Shown: positions 16,020-27,973 of the stretch, piece after piece
Numbering within the stretch: the first letter of the stretch is position 1
Layout: each line of letters starts with the position of its first letter
Assembly (NCBI GenBank): GCA_007693745.1
Contig: REDA01000005.1
Span: 1-44,174 of the forward strand
Origin: Balneolaceae bacterium
GTDB taxonomy: Bacteria > Bacteroidota > Rhodothermia > Balneolales > Balneolaceae
Direction: 5' to 3'
DNA length: 44,174 nt
Notes under the pieces: generated by a model
What the model was told of the DNA's origin: nothing
Seen by the model: the letters and a program-made list of their open reading frames with translations, nothing else
Database searches by the model: none
Made by a program: the position numbers and the translations under genes

Positions 16020-17372
16020 ATGCCGGATTTATTGAAAGTTGCCAAATTTGGAGGCACCAGCATGGCAGACTACCATGCCATGAAACGTTGTGCAGGGATT
16101 GTGGGGTCTGATCCTGATAAGAAGGTAATTGTAGTAAGTGCTACTGCGGGAACCACAAACCTGCTGACTGAATTTATTGCAGAAAGTGACAAGGAGAGGC
16201 GTTTAGATATCGCGCGGAGAATCCGATTCAAGCATCTCGAACTGTGTAATCTTATTCAGGATAAATTTTCACCACAGAAAAAGATTCTGGGTTTACTTGA
16301 TGAACTTGAACAGATTGCAGTTCGAACACAGCTGATGACATCAATGCTCCGGGACGACATTCTCTCCTTTGGAGAGCGTCTTTCATCTGAACTTTTTACC
16401 GCTGTATTGTCTGAACAGACCGGAAAAGATGCGCACTGTTTTGATGTAAGGGAAATCATGAGAACGGACAACAATTTTGGCAGTGCAGAGCCTGTTATTG
16501 AGGATATTGCCAGGCTTACGGAAGAGAAACTTCTGCCTTTTCTGGATCATAAGTGTATTGTAACCCAGGGTTTCATTGGTTCTGACAGTCATGGATTTAC
16601 CACAACTCTCGGAAGAGGTGGAAGTGATTACTCGGCTGCACTCCTTGCAGAAGCACTGGACGCCGATGTACTTGAGATCTGGACGGACGTTACAGCCATC
16701 TACACTACAGATCCGAGAATTGCAGAAGGTGTGAAGCCGATTACTGAGATCAGTTTTGACGAGGCAGCGGAACTATCCGTCTTTGGCGCCAAAGTCTTGC
16801 ATCCTGCGACAATGGTTCCGGCAATCCGGAAAAATATCCGCGTCTATGTAGGTTCAAGTATTGAACCGGACAAACCGGGTACCTGGATAGTAAAGGAGAC
16901 CAAAGATCACCCGGTAATCCGGGCCGTAAGTCTCAGGCGCAATCAGACCCTGCTGACTGTTCACAGTCTCGATATGCTGCACCGTTTCGGTTTTCTTGCC
17001 CGTCTGTTCACCCTGCTTGCTGATCATAAAATCAGTGTTGATCTGGTGACGACCAGTGAGGTTAGCGTTGCACTTACTCTCGATTCAGATATGAATACTC
17101 CGGGAAAACAGAAACTGACGGATGAGGTTCTTGTGGAACTGAGGTCATTTTGTGAAGTTGAAATAGAGCGTGATCTGGCTCTTATTGCCCTGATAGGGAA
17201 CAGACTGGATACCACGGCCGGACTTAGCGGTCCCGTATTCGGTGCTCTCAAGGAGATTAACGTGCGTCTGATATGCCATGGTGCAAGTACACACAACCTC
17301 TGCTTTCTGGTATCCGAAAAAGAGGCCGAAAAAGTGGTGCAGCGGCTGCATAAAACATTTATTGAGTCATGA
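16020..17372 (+). CDS. lysC: Aspartate kinase (LysC type)
   Basis: This 450-residue enzyme phosphorylates aspartate, the committed step to lysine, threonine and methionine. The kinase signature KFGGTS is at residues 9-14, and the ATP-binding and catalytic region LGRGGSDYSAALLAEAL lies near 200. Two C-terminal ACT regions (about 300-450) probably bind an allosteric amino acid. The overall pattern, including the N-terminus and total length, resembles monofunctional E. coli LysC (449 residues) rather than the ThrA fusion; no homoserine dehydrogenase domain follows. Linkage to dapB, dapA and dapD suggests a dedicated lysine/diaminopimelate isozyme with lysine feedback, which is inference. The ATG at 16020 follows an A-rich stretch without a clear Shine-Dalgarno. 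Confidence 0.95.
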   Translation: MPDLLKVAKFGGTSMADYHAMKRCAGIVGSDPDKKVIVVSATAGTTNLLTEFIAESDKERRLDIARRIRFKHLELCNLIQDKFSPQKKILGLLDELEQIAVRTQLMTSMLRDDILSFGERLSSELFTAVLSEQTGKDAHCFDVREIMRTDNNFGSAEPVIEDIARLTEEKLLPFLDHKCIVTQGFIGSDSHGFTTTLGRGGSDYSAALLAEALDADVLEIWTDVTAIYTTDPRIAEGVKPITEISFDEAAELSVFGAKVLHPATMVPAIRKNIRVYVGSSIEPDKPGTWIVKETKDHPVIRAVSLRRNQTLLTVHSLDMLHRFGFLARLFTLLADHKISVDLVTTSEVSVALTLDSDMNTPGKQKLTDEVLVELRSFCEVEIERDLALIALIGNRLDTTAGLSGPVFGALKEINVRLICHGASTHNLCFLVSEKEAEKVVQRLHKTFIES

Positions 17373-18052
17373 AGAGCCGGAAATATGCTGTAATCGGAAC
17401 CGGGAAAACGGGTAGTTTTGTGGAAGAAATTCTTGGAAGTAAAGCTGTCACATTTGATGAATCTCATCCTCCAACTCTCTCTTCGTTATCGGAAACTGAC
17501 ATTGCGATTATCTTTGTGCCGGGAAGTGCAGCCGGTGAGGTACTTGAGACGGTTTTGGAATCCGGGATTCCTGCGGTCTGGGGGACCACGGGTTATGAAT
17601 GGCCTCAGGGTCTGGATAAGCGCCTGACAGAGAGAAATCTTACCTGGGTAACAGGCAGTAATTTCAGCATTGGCATGAATCTGGTTCGTAAATCCATTGA
17701 AATCCTGGGCAGAGGATCCTCGATTCTAAAAGATCCCCAATTTCATATTCATGAAATACACCATAGCGGAAAGCAGGATGCACCCAGTGGTACGGCACTC
17801 TCATGGAGAGAATGGCTGGGACAGAAATGTGAGATCACCGCTGAGCGTACAGGTGATGTGAAGGGCATCCACACACTTCATCTGAAAACTCCTTCGGAGT
17901 CGATATGGCTGGAACATGAGGCGCATTCCCGAAAAGTCTTTGCGGAAGGAGCAGTCTGGTGCGCTGATTACCTTCTGGATTGTAAAGAACCTGCACCGGG
18001 CTTTCACACATTTCCTGAATTATTTGACAGAGCATTCAGCAACTTATTATGA
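17369..18052 (+). CDS. dapB: 4-hydroxy-tetrahydrodipicolinate reductase
   Basis: This 227-residue enzyme reduces the DapA product using NAD(P)H. The N-terminal dinucleotide-binding loop is GTGKTG (10-15), and the diagnostic active-site motif HEIHHSGKQDAPSGTA lies at 128-143, with the catalytic HH and the KxDAPSGT substrate-binding loop. It is shorter than E. coli DapB (273) but close to the compact Bacteroidota form. Its ATG overlaps the lysC stop (ATGA), and its stop overlaps dapA the same way. Confidence 0.95.
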   Translation: MKSRKYAVIGTGKTGSFVEEILGSKAVTFDESHPPTLSSLSETDIAIIFVPGSAAGEVLETVLESGIPAVWGTTGYEWPQGLDKRLTERNLTWVTGSNFSIGMNLVRKSIEILGRGSSILKDPQFHIHEIHHSGKQDAPSGTALSWREWLGQKCEITAERTGDVKGIHTLHLKTPSESIWLEHEAHSRKVFAEGAVWCADYLLDCKEPAPGFHTFPELFDRAFSNLL

Positions 18053-19760: not shown

Positions 19761-20207
19761 ATGAGTTCATTAAATAAAGCGATGATCATCGGAAGACTGG
19801 GTCAGGATCCGGAGGTACGCTATACACAAAACAATACTGCTGTTGCCACCTTAAGTGTTGCAACATCCGAGAAATACAAGGACCGAAATGGAGAATGGCA
19901 GGAAAACACGGAGTGGCACCGGGTAGTGGCCTGGGGACGAACTGCTGAAATATGTCAGGAGTACCTGAAAAAGGGTTCGCTCGTCTATTTTGAAGGGCCT
20001 ATTCAGACTCGTGAATGGGAGGACAAAGAAGGTCAGAAGCGATACACCACTGAGATCAAAGCCCTGACCATGCAGATGCTGGATACCAAAGGCGGCGGCA
20101 CGGGCGGCGGCGGATTCCAGGAGCCATCAAAAGAGCCGAAATCAGCTGCCAAACCTGTTGAAATCGGCAGCGATTTTGATGATATGGATGATGATTTGCC
20201 ATTTTAA
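19761..20207 (+). CDS. ssb: Single-stranded DNA-binding protein
   Basis: This 148-residue protein begins with the OB-fold domain ([21 protein letters not shown] through about 107), which binds single-stranded DNA as a tetramer. A glycine-rich linker (GGGTGGGG, about 111-118) follows, and then an acidic tail ending DDDLPF, the docking peptide for partner proteins in replication and repair. Length and layout are typical. A GAGGA ribosome binding site lies at 19748-19752, eight bases before the ATG. A strong terminator follows the stop, so ssb is probably its own transcription unit or the end of the dap one. Confidence 0.97.
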
Positions 20208-20229
20208 TAAGAGATATCTTTATTAAATT

Positions 20230-20260
20230 AAATGACGGCCGGTTACAGGCCGTCATTTTT
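20230..20260 (+). terminator. Rho-independent terminator after ssb
   Basis: A perfect 11-bp inverted repeat (20230-20240 and 20248-20258, GC-rich at the loop end) has a 7-nt loop, and its right arm ends in T followed by two more T. It lies 22 bases after the ssb stop and 24 bases before the next gene. The flanking A and T runs could make it bidirectional, but only the plus strand has a gene end here. Confidence 0.87.
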
Positions 20261-20283
20261 ACCGAAAATTAAAAAAGTACCGA

Positions 20284-21657
20284 TTGGAATCTTCAGACGA
20301 ACCTCCGGGACAACTCCTGTTTTTATTTCCCGCTTTGTTCCTCTTCTTCGCTCCGGAAAGCGGAGACGTGTTAAATTACAGTGATCTTCTCCTGCAATTT
20401 TCTGTGATACTGGCCGGACTCGCCGTCAGTGCACTTTACTCCGGTTCGGAGGTCGCCTTTTTTTCTCTGCTGGGTAAACGTGATCAGCTGATGCAGGAAG
20501 ATGCATATACGTCAAGAGACCGCAGAATCCTTCTTATGCTGGATAGTCCCCGAAGGCTGCTGGCTACCATTCTGATCGGCAATACATTTGCCAATATCGT
20601 TACCTCGGTTATTGCAGCTGTAGCAGCAGGAAAAATTGCCTTCCATTATGAGCTGTCCACAGGTTTGGTCTATACCATCGAGATACTTGTGCTTACTTTC
20701 ATGATTCTGATTCTGAGTGAAATAACACCCAAGGTGATCGCCATAAACAATCCGCTGCGCGTTTCCAGATGGCTAAGTTATTTTACCTACAGCAGTTATG
20801 TGCTTTTGGGTCCGGTAGCCAGGCTGATTGCCAGCAGCGCATTGAATCTTGAGAAAAAACTGCCAAAACTGAGTAACAGGATGACGGCGCAGGATCTGAG
20901 GCTGATGGCTGAGATGAGTGAAAAGGAGGGGTCAATAAAAGGAGATGAACGTGAGATTATTGAAAACGTAATTGAATTTGGCAGTACTACAGTCCGCGAG
21001 ATCATGACTTCAAGAGTAAATATTGTAGCTGTGCCTGAGAGCGCAAACCTTCCGGAAGTACTCTTGCTGATCAGGGAAAAGGGCTTGTCAAGGATGCCTC
21101 TGTACAGCAATGATCTGGACACAATTATTGGCGTTATCTATTCAAAAGATGTACTGCCTTACATAAACAGTGAGCTGACAAATCGGGCAATAAACTGGAA
21201 GACCATCGCAAGAAAAGCTCTCTTTATTCCCGCAACGAAAAAACTGGATGATCTGCTGCGGGATTTTCAGCAGGAAAAGACTCACATGGCCATTGTAGTG
21301 GATGAGTATGGAGGTACTGAGGGGATCGTGACTCTCGACGATATTCTGGAAGAAATTGTGGGGGATATCGGTGATGAGTACGATGATGAAGAGGAGAAAC
21401 TCTACACGGAATTCAAGAACGGCATCTATATTTTTGATGCCAAGATCGATCTGGATGACCTGGATGAAATACTTGGGACTGAGATTTCGTCTGATGATGA
21501 CGAATTTGAGACACTGGGGGGGCTGGTCTATCATCTGACAGAACGAATTCCTTCGGTTGGGGAAAAAGTGTCCTACAAGACGATAGAAATGACTGTTCAC
21601 TCAATCAAAAATAACCGGGTTAAAAAATTGAGAGTGAAACTCTTGAATCAGCAATAA
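20284..21657 (+). CDS. CNNM/CorC-type membrane protein with CBS pair (hemolysin C family, GldE-like)
   Basis: This 457-residue protein begins with a DUF21/CNNM membrane domain of about four hydrophobic helices (residues about 5-190, with the GSEVAFFSL motif). Two CBS domains follow (about 215-340; TVREIMTSRVNIVAV is the start of the first, HMAIVVDEYGGTEGIVTLDDILEEIVGDI the end of the second), then a C-terminal CorC_HlyC domain (about 370-450). The family is linked to divalent cation (Mg2+) transport; in Flavobacteriia a relative is GldE of the gliding apparatus. No other gliding genes are present. The only upstream start is TTG at 20284; an in-frame GTG at 20368 is an alternative but would remove a hydrophobic segment that may be a signal anchor. 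Confidence 0.9.
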   Translation: MESSDEPPGQLLFLFPALFLFFAPESGDVLNYSDLLLQFSVILAGLAVSALYSGSEVAFFSLLGKRDQLMQEDAYTSRDRRILLMLDSPRRLLATILIGNTFANIVTSVIAAVAAGKIAFHYELSTGLVYTIEILVLTFMILILSEITPKVIAINNPLRVSRWLSYFTYSSYVLLGPVARLIASSALNLEKKLPKLSNRMTAQDLRLMAEMSEKEGSIKGDEREIIENVIEFGSTTVREIMTSRVNIVAVPESANLPEVLLLIREKGLSRMPLYSNDLDTIIGVIYSKDVLPYINSELTNRAINWKTIARKALFIPATKKLDDLLRDFQQEKTHMAIVVDEYGGTEGIVTLDDILEEIVGDIGDEYDDEEEKLYTEFKNGIYIFDAKIDLDDLDEILGTEISSDDDEFETLGGLVYHLTERIPSVGEKVSYKTIEMTVHSIKNNRVKKLRVKLLNQQ

Positions 21658-21695: not shown

Positions 21696-22736
21696 ATGAA
21701 TCCAACCCAAAAGCCGCTGATTCTGAACGGAGTTGAACTCAGGTCAATGAACACGTTCGGTGTATCCTCTGTTGCGCCGCTGTTTAGTGAAATTAAATCG
21801 GTGGAGGAGCTGCATTTTTTGAGAGAGAAAGGATTTTTCGACCATTCCCTTCCTTTTGTTCTGGGGGGCGGTTCCAATGTTCTCTTCTCGGAGAAACTGA
21901 CCCGTCCGATTCTTAAAGCCGGAATGAAAGGTGTAAAAATTCTTTCTGCCCGGGATGGTATCGTCAGGGTGGAAGTGCAGGCAGGCGAACAGTGGCCCGC
22001 CCTTGTTGAATGGGCAGTGCAGAAAAATCTGGGTGGACTTGAGAATCTTGCACTCATTCCCGGAACGGCCGGAGCGGCACCGATTCAGAACATTGGTGCC
22101 TATGGTGTGGAACTGAAGGATCTGTTTGAATCACTGAACTGGACCGGTTTCAGTAATTTTTCTGAACGCACATTTACTGCAGAAGAGTGCGCATTTGGTT
22201 ATCGTGACAGCATTTTTAAACAGGAGCTTAAAGGTGCCGGCATTGTGACAAGTATCGTGCTGAGGTTAACCCGTGAAAATCACACGTTAAACTACCATTA
22301 CAAGCCACTGAGAGAGTACCTGGAGCAAAGAGGAGAGTTAAAACCTGACATCAGGAGGATATTTGAGGCTGTGGTCTCGGTTCGCCAGTCAAAGTTGCCC
22401 GACCCGGCGGTAACCGGAAATGCAGGCAGCTTTTTCAAGAACCCGATGATTTCAGAGAAACAATTTAATGAAATAGCAGAGTTATATCCGGAGGTACCCG
22501 GATATCCGGATGAATCCGGATTTGTGAAAGTGCCTGCCGCCTGGCTGATTGAAAAAGCAGGCTGGAAAGGCAAAAGAGCAGGAGAAACCGGAACCTGGGA
22601 TAAGCAGGCCCTGGTTATTGTAAACCACGGCAGAGCGGGTGCGTCTGAAATCCTTGATTTTGCCACGGGCATTCAGAAGGATATAAAAGAAAAGTTCGGA
22701 ATCGACCTGTCACCGGAAGTGAATGTGATTCGCTGA
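21696..22736 (+). CDS. murB: UDP-N-acetylenolpyruvoylglucosamine reductase
   Basis: This 346-residue FAD enzyme makes UDP-N-acetylmuramic acid in the cytoplasmic phase of peptidoglycan synthesis. The FAD-binding loop LGGGSN is at 56-61, and IPGTAGAAPIQNIGAYG at 121-137. The catalytic residues can be assigned by pattern as Arg170 (FGYRDS), Ser245 (GNAGSFFKNP) and Glu341 (SPEVNVIR). The extra segment with Tyr near the C-terminal domain marks it as the long type I (E. coli-like) form. A GGAGG ribosome binding site at 21683-21687 is eight bases before the ATG. Its TGA shares one base with the ATG of the next gene. Confidence 0.96.
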   Translation: MNPTQKPLILNGVELRSMNTFGVSSVAPLFSEIKSVEELHFLREKGFFDHSLPFVLGGGSNVLFSEKLTRPILKAGMKGVKILSARDGIVRVEVQAGEQWPALVEWAVQKNLGGLENLALIPGTAGAAPIQNIGAYGVELKDLFESLNWTGFSNFSERTFTAEECAFGYRDSIFKQELKGAGIVTSIVLRLTRENHTLNYHYKPLREYLEQRGELKPDIRRIFEAVVSVRQSKLPDPAVTGNAGSFFKNPMISEKQFNEIAELYPEVPGYPDESGFVKVPAAWLIEKAGWKGKRAGETGTWDKQALVIVNHGRAGASEILDFATGIQKDIKEKFGIDLSPEVNVIR

Positions 22737-24610
22737 TGAATAAAACAAGAGAGCATTTTCTCAATGATCACATCTTTATGGAGGGGCTGCGTTGTCCGCT
22801 CAAATTAAAAATGATGAATCAGGTATCGGATGCATCATTTCACCATGATGGGTACAGGCAGAGAAACAAACTCTACTTAAGAGATGCTGTCGCACAGCGC
22901 TTCAATAATGTGAAGCATACACCGGATGACACGGAGGATGCCCGTGCAACAACAGAGGAGTGGCTGCAGAGTGAGGATGAGATTACTATCTGCGGTGCGG
23001 TTGTTCATCATCATTCGGCACTCACCCGAATTCCGATACTCAGAAAGAAAGGGGAACAGCTGACGCTGATACAGGTACATGGGAAGCTGAGAAATGAGAG
23101 CCCAAACCGTCTGGAAAAAAAGAATAAAAAAACCCGGCACCACAAGGATTACCTGATACGGGCGGCATTCCGCAGGGAAGTAGTAAAACGAGCTTATCCC
23201 GGGTCAGAAATTCAGATACTCTTTTATCATCCTTTAAGAAATTATGTGTCAGGGACAGAAAATCTCCACCGGTTTAAAGCGATGAAAGAAGTGGAGAAGG
23301 TCAGGGGTGAATTCATGAACCTCTTTACCGAATTCAACGTTACGGAAGAAGTGAAAGCCGAATCTGAATCTCTGTCCGGACCCTTTGTTCATACACTGTT
23401 TGAGGGGATTCCGGTAACAAAAGCCATCGCAAAAATTGAGAGTCTGATGTGGAAAAAATCCGTTCTTTCAGAGTTCGGGCCTCATACAGGCTGCAGTTAC
23501 TGCACTTTCAGGAAAAGAAGTGGGGAGAATCCCGGCTGCTGGGAGCTTCATTTTACCGACAGCTCATTAAAAAAACCGGACCTGCATCTCTATGAGCTTA
23601 TAGGTCACGGTAACCAGAGGGAAGCATCCCATATGGAAATATTCCAGGAACAGGTGACTCTGCACGATGCGCCGGGCTCCTTTGAAGCCATCCGGAACTG
23701 CGGAACCGGAAACATTACGATTCAGCAGCGACGGACATTGCAGATATTGAGTGCCAAAGATAAAGAAGTGCCGCTGTTATGGGTAAGAAAGGAGTTGGCC
23801 GGATTACACACGATTGCCAAACCGATTCACTTCATTGATTTTGAAGCGGCCACATTCGCAATACCCCTGAGAAAACAGATGTCTCCATATCAGCCACTTT
23901 TCTATCAGTTTTCATGTCATACAATGGATGATGACGGGGGGATCAGACACACAGAGTGGCTGGATCTGGATTTTGATGAATCCGATATTCATAAAAGCTT
24001 CATAAGAGAATTAGCCAGGATTCCGGAGATAGAAGCCGGAACGATTGTCCACTATTCCCCCTTTGAAAGGCAGGCGATACATCAGCTTCTGAATGAGTTT
24101 GGCAGTAGGGCTGAAGGGGAAGATGAGGTCTCCTTTCTGAACCGATTTCTAAAAAAAGGTTCAAAGGAAGAGTCTTACCGGTTTTTGGATTTAAACCCCT
24201 GGGTCAGGGATTATTACTACAATCGCCTGATGAAGAATGGGTTGAGCCTGAAAGAGGTGTTGAGGGCTGTTCTGAGGTATGAGCAGCTGACTCAGCAAGA
24301 GGGAAAAACGGCTTCGGATCGATTTTCCGGATCGGTTGATCCCTATTCTGTGATACAAAAAGAGAAATCAGCGATTCAGGACGGATCCTCTGCGATGAAT
24401 GCGTGGATCAGTTTCAAATGCGGTTTACTTACACCACAGGAACTTTCGTATATTCCGGATATCATGAAAAAATATTGTGAGCTGGATTCACTGGCTCTGT
24501 TGCATGTAGCCGAGCACCTGATGAGACTGGGTGAACGGATAGCCGGGGGAGAACAGGAGGGAGATATTGTGGAACGGGATAACGATGGCATGAACAGGGA
24601 ACCGTTTTAA
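22736..24610 (+). CDS. DUF2779 nuclease-like protein (degenerate RecB/Cas4-like half plus DEDD-like half)
   Basis: This 624-residue soluble protein has two recognisable halves. The N-terminal half resembles a RecB/Cas4-like PD-(D/E)xK nuclease with a four-cysteine cluster: Cys20 in GLRCPLK, then Cys253, Cys256 and Cys268 in GCSYC...GCW. The positions where relatives carry the catalytic Asp and ExK read RIPIL (99-103, no Asp) and IQVHGK (112-117, no Glu), so this nuclease site looks lost. The C-terminal half matches DUF2779: FIDFEA with Asp368 and Glu370, HYSPFE near 440, FLDL with Asp485, and YCELDSLALL with Asp584, a DEDD-exonuclease-like pattern. It overlaps murB by one base. The cellular role is unknown; DNA or RNA processing is likely from the fold. 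The degeneracy call is by eye and needs an alignment. Confidence 0.78.
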   Translation: MNKTREHFLNDHIFMEGLRCPLKLKMMNQVSDASFHHDGYRQRNKLYLRDAVAQRFNNVKHTPDDTEDARATTEEWLQSEDEITICGAVVHHHSALTRIPILRKKGEQLTLIQVHGKLRNESPNRLEKKNKKTRHHKDYLIRAAFRREVVKRAYPGSEIQILFYHPLRNYVSGTENLHRFKAMKEVEKVRGEFMNLFTEFNVTEEVKAESESLSGPFVHTLFEGIPVTKAIAKIESLMWKKSVLSEFGPHTGCSYCTFRKRSGENPGCWELHFTDSSLKKPDLHLYELIGHGNQREASHMEIFQEQVTLHDAPGSFEAIRNCGTGNITIQQRRTLQILSAKDKEVPLLWVRKELAGLHTIAKPIHFIDFEAATFAIPLRKQMSPYQPLFYQFSCHTMDDDGGIRHTEWLDLDFDESDIHKSFIRELARIPEIEAGTIVHYSPFERQAIHQLLNEFGSRAEGEDEVSFLNRFLKKGSKEESYRFLDLNPWVRDYYYNRLMKNGLSLKEVLRAVLRYEQLTQQEGKTASDRFSGSVDPYSVIQKEKSAIQDGSSAMNAWISFKCGLLTPQELSYIPDIMKKYCELDSLALLHVAEHLMRLGERIAGGEQEGDIVERDNDGMNREPF

Positions 24611-24633: not shown

Positions 24634-26154
24634 GTGATTGGAAGAAACAAATTCAGAATTAACAGCAACAGCGTGATCGCGTTCTCTGTGATTGTGCTCT
24701 TTACCTTCAGCAGCTCCTGTGTGGTACAGCAGAGTCCGGTTTCGGGAGTGAACCGTGCCTATGCGTACTCCTGGAATCAGGAAGTGGAAATTGGCAGGCA
24801 GGTGGATTCAGAGATCGTTGCTGAGTTTGGGTACTACAATGATGAAATAGTTCAGAACTACTTCACCGGATTGGGTGAGTTGATTCTTGAAAACAGCCAT
24901 ATGAGAAGAGAAGACACTGCGGAACAGTTCAGAAATACGGAGTTTACGTTCAGAATTCTGGACAGCCCTGTTGTGAATGCGTTTGCATTGCCTGGCGGTT
25001 ATGTGTATGTGACCAGGGGATTGATGGTTCACATGAACAATGAGGCTCAGCTGGCTGTTGTAACAGGGCACGAAATTGGCCACGTTGCTGCCAGGCACGC
25101 CTCGCAGAGAGGGCTGCAGCAGATGGTCGGACAAATTGTAGTTATTGGAGGAGCCATTCTTGGGCAGGAATTGCTCGGCCTGCCGGGAGAGAGTATTTTG
25201 AACCTGAGCGGAACGGCGGCACAGCTGCTTTTCTTAAGAAACAGCCGTGAGCATGAGAGGGAATCTGACCGGCTGGGTGTGGAGTACGCTGCAAAAAGCG
25301 GGTTTGATGCGGCGGAAGGGGCTGCATTCTTTACAACGCTTAGGAGGTTGTCTGATCGTGCCGGTCAAACGCTTCCAAATTTTTTATCCACCCATCCGGA
25401 CCCCGGACAACGGGAGCGTTCCATCCCGGAACTGGCACTCGTATGGGCTGAAAGGGGAGTTGAACAAAACCGGGTGAATGGCAGGGAGTATCTTGAAATG
25501 ATTCGGGGAATGACATTTGGTGAAAACCCCAGAAACGGATTCACGGAAGAGGGAATTTACTACCATCCGGAGCTGGAGTTTCAGTTTGCCTATCCGGAGA
25601 ACTGGCAGATCGTGAATCAACCCACAAGAGTTGTGGCGATCAGTCCCGGAAGAGACGGAGTCATGATTCTCAGAACCGATCCGGATTCGGAAACGGCGAG
25701 GGAGTCCGTCGGGTCATTTTTGCGGGCAAATGATATAGAACCTGAATCAGAGAGGTCACTCAGAAGCAGCGGACGTTACGCCGGTTATGAAGCGGTATTC
25801 ACGATCGAAGAGGAGAATGGAGACCGGTTGAAGGTTCAGATCTATGCAGTGGAGTACGCAGGCAGGGTTTACCGGTTTGTCAATTATACCGATGAAGACA
25901 AATTCAGCAGCTACAGTATGGACTTCACGCTTTCTGTGGCTTCGTTTAATGCACTCACCGATCCGTTAAAACTGGCAATTCAGCCGGTCCGAATTGAACT
26001 CGTGGAAGTTCAGCAGAGTATTTCACTTCGTGAACTGCTGCCATCGGAGCTGCCCATGCAGATCGATCCGGAAGAGGTGGCCATAATCAATCAGCTGCAA
26101 CTGGATGAGAGGATCGAAGCCGGGAGCCTGATAAAAATACCGGTTCAAGATTAA
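24634..26154 (+). CDS. M48-family metalloprotease lipoprotein (BepA/LoiP-like)
   Basis: This 506-residue protein has a lipoprotein signal peptide with lipobox FSSSC, the lipidated cysteine being residue 29. The M48 protease domain follows: NAFALPGGYVYVTRGL (115-130), the zinc motif HEIGH (146-150) and the third ligand Glu210 in ERESDRLG. Bacterial relatives (BepA, LoiP) work at the inner face of the outer membrane, degrading or maturing misassembled outer-membrane proteins. After about residue 300 there is an extra C-terminal region starting FTEEGIYYHPELEFQFAYPENWQI, which resembles a PsbP/DUF1795-like domain, and a short final segment that may be LysM-like. The start is GTG. Direction and spacing (23 bp) fit co-transcription with the DUF2779 gene. 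Confidence 0.9.
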   Translation: MIGRNKFRINSNSVIAFSVIVLFTFSSSCVVQQSPVSGVNRAYAYSWNQEVEIGRQVDSEIVAEFGYYNDEIVQNYFTGLGELILENSHMRREDTAEQFRNTEFTFRILDSPVVNAFALPGGYVYVTRGLMVHMNNEAQLAVVTGHEIGHVAARHASQRGLQQMVGQIVVIGGAILGQELLGLPGESILNLSGTAAQLLFLRNSREHERESDRLGVEYAAKSGFDAAEGAAFFTTLRRLSDRAGQTLPNFLSTHPDPGQRERSIPELALVWAERGVEQNRVNGREYLEMIRGMTFGENPRNGFTEEGIYYHPELEFQFAYPENWQIVNQPTRVVAISPGRDGVMILRTDPDSETARESVGSFLRANDIEPESERSLRSSGRYAGYEAVFTIEEENGDRLKVQIYAVEYAGRVYRFVNYTDEDKFSSYSMDFTLSVASFNALTDPLKLAIQPVRIELVEVQQSISLRELLPSELPMQIDPEEVAIINQLQLDERIEAGSLIKIPVQD

Positions 26155-26233: not shown

Positions 26234-27532
26234 ATGATTGAACGTTATTCACGTGAAGAGATGTCTGCAATATGGACCGAAAAGGCGCAGTTTCAGGCCT
26301 GGCTTGATGTGGAGCTGGCGGCCTGCCGTGCCTGGAGCCGGCTGGGGGTAATTCCGGAAGAGGATGTGGATCGGCTCTATGAAAAGGCGACATTTGATAT
26401 TGAGAGAATCAAAGCGATCGAGAATGAGACACGGCATGATGTGGTTGCATTTACCCGTGCAGTTTCGGAATCGCTCGGAGAGGAAAAAAAATGGGTCCAT
26501 TACGGACTTACATCCACCGATGTTGTTGATACAGCCAACGGACTCCGGCTCAAAAAGGCGAACCAGCTGATTCGTGAAGCGATAGACAAGCTCCTGGTAA
26601 CACTCTCAGAAAAAGCACTGGAGCACAAGTTCACGGTGATGATGGGACGCACTCATGGCGTCCACGCAGAGCCTACAACATTCGGCCTTAAGTGCGCTCT
26701 GTGGTATGCCGAAATGAAGCGCAACCTGAAGCGATTTGAGCTGGCCGCAGAAGATGTGGAGTTTGGAAAATTATCAGGTGCGGTGGGAACATTTGCACAC
26801 ATTCCGCCCGAAGTTGAAAAGATTACATGCGATCTGCTGGGCATTCAGCCTGCGCCTGTTTCCACACAGACGCTGCAGCGAGACCGCCATGCTCATTATA
26901 TGTCAGTTTTGGCGCTGATTGGATCGAGTCTTGAAAAGATTGCTGTGGAAATCCGGCATCTTCAGCGTACCGAGCTGCGAGAGGCGGAAGAGTTTTTCAG
27001 CAGGGGACAAAAAGGGTCGTCCGCCATGCCACATAAACGAAATCCGATCAGTTCTGAAAACATCACGGGTTGTGCCAGGGTTTTAAGGGGTTATATGATT
27101 ACTGCATTTGAGAATATTCCGCTGTGGCATGAGCGGGATATCTCTCATTCGTCGGCGGAACGCATTATCCTGCCGGATGCCACAATTCTTCTTCACTACA
27201 TGCTCTACAGATTTAACCATGTTGTTGAAAACCTTGTCGTTTATCCTGAGCAGATGAAACTGAATATGGATAAAACGCATGGGCTTGTTTTCTCTCAGCG
27301 GTTGCTGCTCATGCTGATAGAGAAAGGGTGTTCAAGGGAAATGGCTTATGACACGGTGCAGCCCCTTGCCATGAAAGCATGGCAGCAGCAGACGGGCTTC
27401 CGGGATCTTGCAGAGAGTAATGATCAGATACAGCGGTACTTAACAAGCGAAGAGATTGAAGAGGCATTTGATCTGCAGTATCACATGAGAAGAGTGGATG
27501 AAATATTTAAGAGAGCAGGGCTGCTGACGTAG
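26234..27532 (+). CDS. purB: Adenylosuccinate lyase
   Basis: This 432-residue enzyme of the fumarase/aspartase superfamily splits SAICAR and adenylosuccinate in purine synthesis. The superfamily signature is [12 protein letters not shown] (near 260), including the mobile-loop serine. The histidine motifs are [10 protein letters not shown] (about 139-148) and [11 protein letters not shown] (about 89-99). Length is typical (430-450). The gene stands in the same direction as the M48 gene with a 79-bp gap that shows no clear ribosome binding site, so it may have its own promoter. A run of nine T immediately follows the stop, without a proper preceding hairpin. Confidence 0.96.
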
Positions 27533-27628: not shown

Positions 27629-27973
27629 ATGAATACAGCCAGAAAACTCAGACAGGAAATCAAAGAAGCAGTTTCAGGCCCGAAAGCGGGTACTCAAAAG
27701 AAGCTTAAGCTCATGGCAACGGCGCGAGGTGAGCGAAAAAGAATGGAAGAGATATTCTCTCTTTTGGGTTGGTCAGAGTTGCCTGAAGAGCTTAAAACGG
27801 CAGTAGCCGCCGATGTAAAAGGTTATGCGGACGAACTGGAAGGCAGGTATTCGACCCGTTGTGAATATGTTCAAAGAAGACGGGAGAGTGTGGACTTCTG
27901 GGTTAGAAGCTTTAAAGACGGCTTTTGTTCATCTGCGACTGCCGCTGAGGCGCTGCAGGTACCGCGTCAGTAA
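27629..27973 (+). CDS. Hypothetical 114-residue protein, function unknown
   Basis: I do not recognise this protein. It is soluble, mostly helical and strongly charged, with a lysine/arginine-rich N-terminal half (residues about 1-35, including KAGTQKKLKLMATARGERKRMEE) and a more mixed C-terminal half (RRRESVDFWVRSFKDGF). It has two cysteines and no signal peptide or membrane segment. The strong GGAGG site and the upstream inverted repeat suggest it is expressed and perhaps regulated. It converges on the glycosyltransferase gene with an 8-bp gap. The basic character could suit nucleic-acid or ribosome binding, but nothing specific supports that. Confidence 0.65.
   Translation: MNTARKLRQEIKEAVSGPKAGTQKKLKLMATARGERKRMEEIFSLLGWSELPEELKTAVAADVKGYADELEGRYSTRCEYVQRRRESVDFWVRSFKDGFCSSATAAEALQVPRQ

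Follow-up and report, generated by a model that had tools for sequence, protein, structure and literature searches.

A murB-linked DUF2779 protein of Balneolaceae pairs a Cas4-like half that lacks the catalytic residues with a conserved exonuclease-type half

Introduction

What does a protein built from two nuclease-like halves do once one half has lost the residues for cutting? The question is raised by a DUF2779 gene in the window, which here means the whole 44,174-nucleotide stretch of contig REDA01000005.1 that was analysed (source genome 2.87 Mb, 100 contigs). The initial annotation, made from the letters alone, had read the first half of the product as a Cas4/AddB-like Fe-S nuclease that keeps its four cysteines but has lost its cutting motifs, and the second half as an active DEDD-like nuclease, so that the first half might have switched from cutting to binding. 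No biochemistry or substrate of DUF2779 is recorded in the open-licence literature that we found; a transposon mutant in a DUF2779 gene of Mycoplasma bovis is on record. Classification work placed PF11074 in a clade of presumed 3'-5' exonucleases and noted a DUF83 (Cas4-like) partner (PMC3985635).

Results

A DUF2779 gene at a conserved housekeeping locus

The 624-aa ORF is indeed a DUF2779 protein, with a match to PF11074 over residues 365-500 (E 8e-19, 68.6 bits against a gathering cut-off of 23.3). The residues singled out by the initial annotation (Cys20, Cys253, Cys256, Cys268, Asp368, Glu370, Asp485, Asp584) were found at these positions, and R98-I-P-I-L and I112-Q-V-H-G-K117 read as it had quoted them. 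The AF2 model was confident (pLDDT 90.8, pTM 0.91). The protein scored far below the curated cut-offs of the TM0106 family (TIGR03491; 12.9 bits against 97.45) and the UU173 family (NF045869; 18.9 bits against 225), had no match in PADLOC or PHROGs, and gave nothing useful in a sequence search of PDB chains (best E 0.06). The gene and its immediate neighbours are as follows.

19761-21657, plus strand: ssb and a CNNM/GldE-like gene, upstream of murB
21696-22736, plus strand: murB, a fixed neighbour, whose stop codon shares one base with the DUF2779 start (TGATG)
22736-24610, plus strand: DUF2779 ORF, 624 aa, with a dead PD-(D/E)XK/Fe-S half and a DEDD-type exonuclease half (PF11074, AF2 model)
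24634-26154, plus strand: M48 (BepA-like) peptidase, the usual downstream neighbour
26234-27532, plus strand: purB, downstream end of the conserved cluster

The TGATG overlap suggests translational coupling of murB and the DUF2779 gene. Wherever the contig was long enough, the order lysC-dapB-dapA-dapD-ssb-CNNM/GldE-like-murB-DUF2779-M48-purB was fixed in the genus of the window, and ssb-CNNM-murB-DUF2779-M48, mostly followed by purB, was fixed in the Fodinibius group. At one locus (L134), M48 was not detected between DUF2779 and purB. No cas gene was linked to the murB-linked copies at the lysC-to-purB locus.

DUF2779 copies that keep the nuclease site, which we call canonical, lie elsewhere: those of the window's genus (L032, L034, L035, L037, L076) are located away from the murB locus, and one genome, LKNA01, carries both kinds (L055 and L076). 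This genome (G008, in the window's genus) is titled Chitinophagaceae but has the Balneolaceae murB locus, and the title looks outdated. Canonical loci lie near genes for WYL-domain regulators in 9 of 54 cases, not always adjacent, and some have a SIR2-like gene or a phage integrase; loci with WYL, SIR2-like or integrase genes nearby include L069, L038, L100, L098 and L089, among others. Such neighbours hint at a mobile or defence role of canonical copies, and the WYL linkage is too loose to claim.

The N-terminal half has lost its nuclease site

The N-half and its elements are located as follows.

22757-23605, plus strand: N-half, residues 8-290, predicted Cas4/AddB-like PD-(D/E)XK fold with catalytic residues lost (profile match to the canonical N-half)
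22793-22795, plus strand: Cys20, first of four Fe-S-type cysteines, invariant
22850-22894, plus strand: helix 39-53, the former motif I, now basic RQRNKLYLR where canonical copies have E/Q/K/D-G-G
23027-23041, plus strand: RIPIL, residues 98-102, with Pro100 where canonical copies have the catalytic Asp
23069-23086, plus strand: IQVHGK, residues 112-117, with Gln113 and His115 replacing the catalytic Glu and Lys
23135-23194, plus strand: helix 134-153, with Arg142 and Arg146 replacing the Asp and Gln of the Q motif
23492-23539, plus strand: Cys253, Cys256 and Cys268 (C-x2-C-xn-C group); 253 and 268 are invariant, and one canonical copy has a gap at 256

Over the hairpin and the next helix, canonical DUF2779 proteins share the consensus RxD ... 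(L/I)IEVKxKS ... DxAFQ. The catalytic Asp, Glu, Lys and Gln were each present in 61/61 canonical long copies, a sample picked by similarity to the window protein plus one phylum-wide family search and thus no census. The N-half of the window protein matched the profile of the canonical N-half with a probability of 99.8 and an E value of 1.5e-27, with both motifs aligned ungapped: it reads TRIPILRKKGEQLTLIQVHGKL ... RAAFR where the canonical counterpart, gap-free over the hairpin, reads IRVDVFEKNGNDVNLIEVKAKS ... DVAFQ. The substitutions are Asp to Pro100, Glu to Gln113, Lys to His115 and Gln to Arg146, and motif I reads RNK in place of E/Q/K/D-G-G. The D, ExK and Q motifs of PD-(D/E)XK/Cas4 nucleases are all absent from the protein, which agrees with the replacement by RIPIL and IQVHGK proposed in the initial annotation. 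DUF2779 relatives do not as a rule lack the site, an outcome that the initial annotation had named as refuting its proposal: the canonical long copies keep it. In the AF2 model, the changes fall on strands 95-105 and 108-114 and helices 39-53 and 134-153, with H115 directly past strand 108-114.

The fold of this half appears to be retained, as judged from the predicted structure and the canonical relatives; the assignment is based on these relatives and on Foldseek, as the VIA-align rows span the C-half only. Foldseek matches of the N-half to Cas4, MGME1 and AddAB were weak (best E about 0.02), and the match to Cas4 7mi4 had a probability of 1.00 yet an E value of 0.035 and an rmsd of 6.6. A canonical copy (L069) likewise gave weak matches to the PDDEXK_1 and Cas4 models. 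By alignment, the N-half is without the residues for metal-dependent cutting, and it presumably no longer cuts.

Cys20, Cys253 and Cys268 are invariant among copies with aligned sequence, and Cys256 is gapped only in the canonical copy L117. An Fe-S cluster is most likely kept in the N-half, judging from these retained cysteines. As the cysteines are kept here though catalysis is lost, the cluster, if present, would be needed for a role other than cutting, probably fold or binding. The alignment, the tree and the model bear out the overall picture: the cysteines kept, the cutting site gone and the second half intact.

The C-terminal half retains the exonuclease motifs

The features of the C-half are as follows.

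23816-24547, plus strand: C-half, residues 361-604, DEDD exonuclease fold like the exonuclease domains of family B polymerases (VIA-align)
23837-23845, plus strand: exonuclease motif I, D368-F-E370, invariant in the 63-sequence alignment
24053-24067, plus strand: exonuclease motif II, Y440-S-P-F-E444, with Glu and not the usual Asp; E444 invariant in the 63-sequence alignment
24188-24190, plus strand: Asp485 of a conserved DL motif, invariant in the 63-sequence alignment
24473-24487, plus strand: exonuclease motif III, Y580-C-E-L-D584; Y580, C581 and D584 invariant in the 63-sequence alignment

Residues 361-610 matched the 3'-5' exonuclease domain of family B polymerases with Z of 12-13 over about 170-190 residues (rmsd about 3-4.5; VIA-align), and hhalign matches of the C-half to PF10108 members and bacterial family B polymerases were weak or partial. 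The 63-sequence alignment, which includes the dead clade, shows no variation at D368, E370, E444, D485 or D584. In the wider DUF2779 set, Glu444 was found in almost all copies examined, with Gln in two canonical copies. The lineage points to the exonuclease half as the part on which selection was never relaxed, and the motifs suggest that this half would act as a 3'-5' exonuclease.

The DEDD acids named by the initial annotation (D368, E370, D485, D584) need one exchange. We assigned motif II from the alignment with TM0106-type proteins, together with the match in fold and what is generally known of DEDD motifs. From DnaQ and family B polymerases, we take a Glu of the E444 type to be the motif-II metal ligand and an Asp of the D485 type to belong to a separate conserved motif. 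In the profile alignment, E444 lies opposite the Glu of YxxYE and D485 opposite VDL. Because E444 is aligned with the motif-II Glu and D485 with the separate VDL motif, the second acid is most likely Glu444 (YSPFE) and not Asp485, and the list most likely should read D368, E370, E444 and D584.

The nuclease site was lost once in the murB-linked lineage

A scan of genome contigs with a single sequence found no relatives, and an alignment-based scan found them. An orthologue was present in 26 of the 28 genomes of the window's genus; one of the others (G017) has no copy and one (G022) has a canonical copy only. Further murB-linked copies occur in eight more Balneolaceae genera (g3, g7, g21, g24, g25, g27, g28, g32); the form with a dead N-half is common to dozens of related species. 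Relatives in named records are Balneolaceae, including Rhodohalobacter sulfatireducens and many MAGs titled Balneolaceae. We also surveyed the sequence downstream of murB in twenty regions from 17 other genera of the family: where a DUF2779 gene follows murB, every copy has Pro for Asp, and elsewhere M48, purB or other sequence comes after murB. In several Balneolaceae genera (L123, L124, L127, L132, L136, L137), no DUF2779 gene was found between murB and M48.

In the tree, the murB-linked copies all lie on one side of one branch (SH-aLRT 100); a previous tree placed the genus group and the Fodinibius group each on one side of a branch (100 and 99). Pro stands at the Asp position in 38/38 dead-clade copies with sequence there, and none has the catalytic Glu. 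The clade-wide pattern, seen in 26/28 genomes of the genus, rules out chance or sequencing error. Rhodohalobacter-type copies have Pro100 and Gln113 in 27/27, His115 in 25/27 and Arg or Lys at position 146 in 27/27. Fodinibius-type copies have Pro100 in 11/11 and H, Y, Q, F or L, never Glu, at position 113; they keep Asp142 and Gln146, each in 10/11. As Pro100 occurs in both branches and Gln146 is kept in the Fodinibius type, the Asp was lost before the two branches split and the Q motif later. We conclude that the catalytic loss was one event at the base of the murB-linked Balneolaceae lineage.

Losses at the same nuclease site were apparently separate in some short (about 500 aa) DUF2779 proteins: L154, L157 and L158, of one taxonomic family, keep the Asp but show Lys or Arg at the Glu position of ExK, and L159 has Ser in place of the Glu. 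L155 is a near copy of L154, and the cysteines are kept in L154, L155, L157 and L158. The DUF2779 of L090, from a contig titled Rhodothermia bacterium, is identical in the tree to L161 (G063, of the window's family), and here title and taxonomy differ.

A conserved basic signature stands at the old site

Within the genus clade, P100, Q113, H115, G116 and K117 are each found in 23/23 copies, R146 in 22/23, K45 in 22/22 and N44 in 20/21. The replacement signature, RQRNKL, RIPI, IQ(I/V)HGK and AAYR, is conserved and basic, which indicates at the sequence level that the lost site was replaced rather than eroded. The dN/dS of close genus pairs was 0.19, 0.16 and 0.14 for the N-half (three pairs) and 0.126, 0.091, 0.075 and 0.115 for the C-half (four pairs); the values are rough, as several dS exceed 1 and a fourth N-half pair was not computable owing to saturated synonymous sites. 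Purifying selection acts on both halves.

The N-half carries a mean net charge of +7.3 in the genus clade, compared with -4.0 in canonical copies. Of this shift of +11.4, +10.2 falls in the 62 residues of the three old-site elements and +1.2 in the other 206, a concentration matched by 1.2% of random triplets of stretches. Most neighbouring proteins of the window are acidic (M48 -25, CNNM -22, lysC -13; murB -1). The C-half of the dead clades is likewise more basic than its canonical counterpart. Since most of the shift sits in the three former site elements, the switch from cutting to binding suggested by the initial annotation becomes more likely. In the Fodinibius-type branch, where the Q motif and Asp142 are kept, the charge shift is less focused (+6.6 within the three elements and +4.7 outside them), and the basic patch therefore differs within the clade.

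Comparison with known systems

Canonical DUF2779 proteins (PF11074; family F.17 of the RNase H-like classification) share the two-half build, the cysteines and the exonuclease motifs of the window protein, but keep the PD-(D/E)XK site and were not found at the murB locus. TM0106-type proteins (COG2251/TIGR03491) also begin with a RecB/Cas4-like half and continue with an RNase H-like exonuclease half, with aligned YxxYE and VDL motifs; the members found are about 1,100 aa long compared with 624 aa, and COG2251 has tandem AAA domains (PMC3985635). Cas4/AddB Fe-S nucleases resemble the protein in four-cysteine layout and probably in fold, whereas it lacks their catalytic Asp, Glu, Lys and Gln.

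Two published cases show that the PD-(D/E)XK fold can be reused after catalytic loss. RecC has a nuclease-like domain that lost catalysis within a DNA-processing protein and passes or guides a DNA strand (PMC1185551). Unlike the window protein, it has helicase-like domains and another set of partners, and the strand is guided by another face of the domain; because RecC binds DNA on a face other than the old site, basic residues at an old site do not have to mean that binding takes place there. The nucleocapsid protein TP1 of TTV1 derives from a dead Cas4 that lost the catalytic Glu, and its basic surface is proposed to bind DNA (PMC4625639), as we propose for the N-half here. TP1 lost the Fe-S module, whereas the window protein kept its four cysteines and the fused exonuclease half.

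Proposed role and alternatives

Taken as a whole, the explanation that we favour, and consider rather probable, is that the dead Cas4-like half grips nucleic acid and feeds the C-terminal 3'-5' exonuclease. The former active-site surface would have been rebuilt with conserved basic residues and would most likely grip a strand or an end; it would present this strand to the C-terminal DEDD-type domain, which would degrade it 3'-5' with D368, E370, E444 and D584 as metal ligands. We infer that the two halves are coupled in this way. The gene has become a fixture of a housekeeping locus, where ssb lies two genes away. A more specific version is put forward tentatively, and we would not be surprised to see it fail: at a housekeeping locus near ssb, a Cas4-like domain was converted once and stably to an Fe-S clamp for nucleic acid, which steers the family-B-polymerase-like exonuclease fused to it. 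If so, a patchy, possibly defence-associated nuclease family was tamed for core DNA or RNA processing. The lineage offers a natural separation-of-function variant of DUF2779. In active Cas4/AddB/Dna2-type nucleases, the roles of the Fe-S cluster in catalysis, DNA binding and fold are hard to disentangle; a lineage with the catalytic residues lost and all four cysteines kept clade-wide separates these roles and makes them testable.

An N-half that is merely structural or docks proteins, held by the Fe-S cluster without touching nucleic acid, would make the new motif a protein or small-ligand interface. The locus, which mixes cell-wall and metabolic genes with ssb, and the non-basic members of the new conserved set (P100, G116, L118, N44) fit such a role. 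This seems unlikely, though worth keeping in mind, given that most of the charge shift falls on the former active site and that the dead relatives of the same fold, RecC and TTV1 TP1, contact DNA or are proposed to.

It is decidedly improbable that the exonuclease half is no working DNA nuclease either, with the protein acting on RNA or only as a binding scaffold. The Glu in place of Asp at motif II would agree with this, as would the literature found, which records no substrate; yet Glu is the family norm at motif II, and the five C-half acids stay invariant even in the dead clade.

We regard it as very improbable that the N-half still cuts with relocated catalytic residues, such as His115/Lys117 together with D11 or D50. 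Active-site residues can migrate in PD-(D/E)XK enzymes, K117 is kept, and the genus clade conserves two acids, D11 (20/21) and D50 (18/22). However, no other acid of the N-half proper reaches 80% conservation, and both lie far from the hairpin along the chain; D50 is replaced by N or R in some copies, and D11 is Lys or Arg in the Fodinibius-type branch. Motif I disappeared along with the Asp, Glu and Lys, as did the Q motif in the genus, and no substitute Asp or Glu conserved within or beside the hairpin of the dead clade was found in the alignment. The proposal of a lost site in the initial annotation is thereby strengthened. A decaying pseudogene with meaningless motif losses, favoured by nothing except the losses themselves, is refuted by the open frames in 26/28 genus genomes, the fixed locus, purifying selection and the new invariant signature.

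Other genes of the window

A 114-aa protein (27629-27973, plus strand) has no confident Pfam match; it follows purB in most relatives, with 44-58% identity. The dapB gene (17369-18052, plus strand) encodes a short protein of 227 aa with a partial DapB_N match below the TIGR00036 cut-off, and its position is conserved across the genus.
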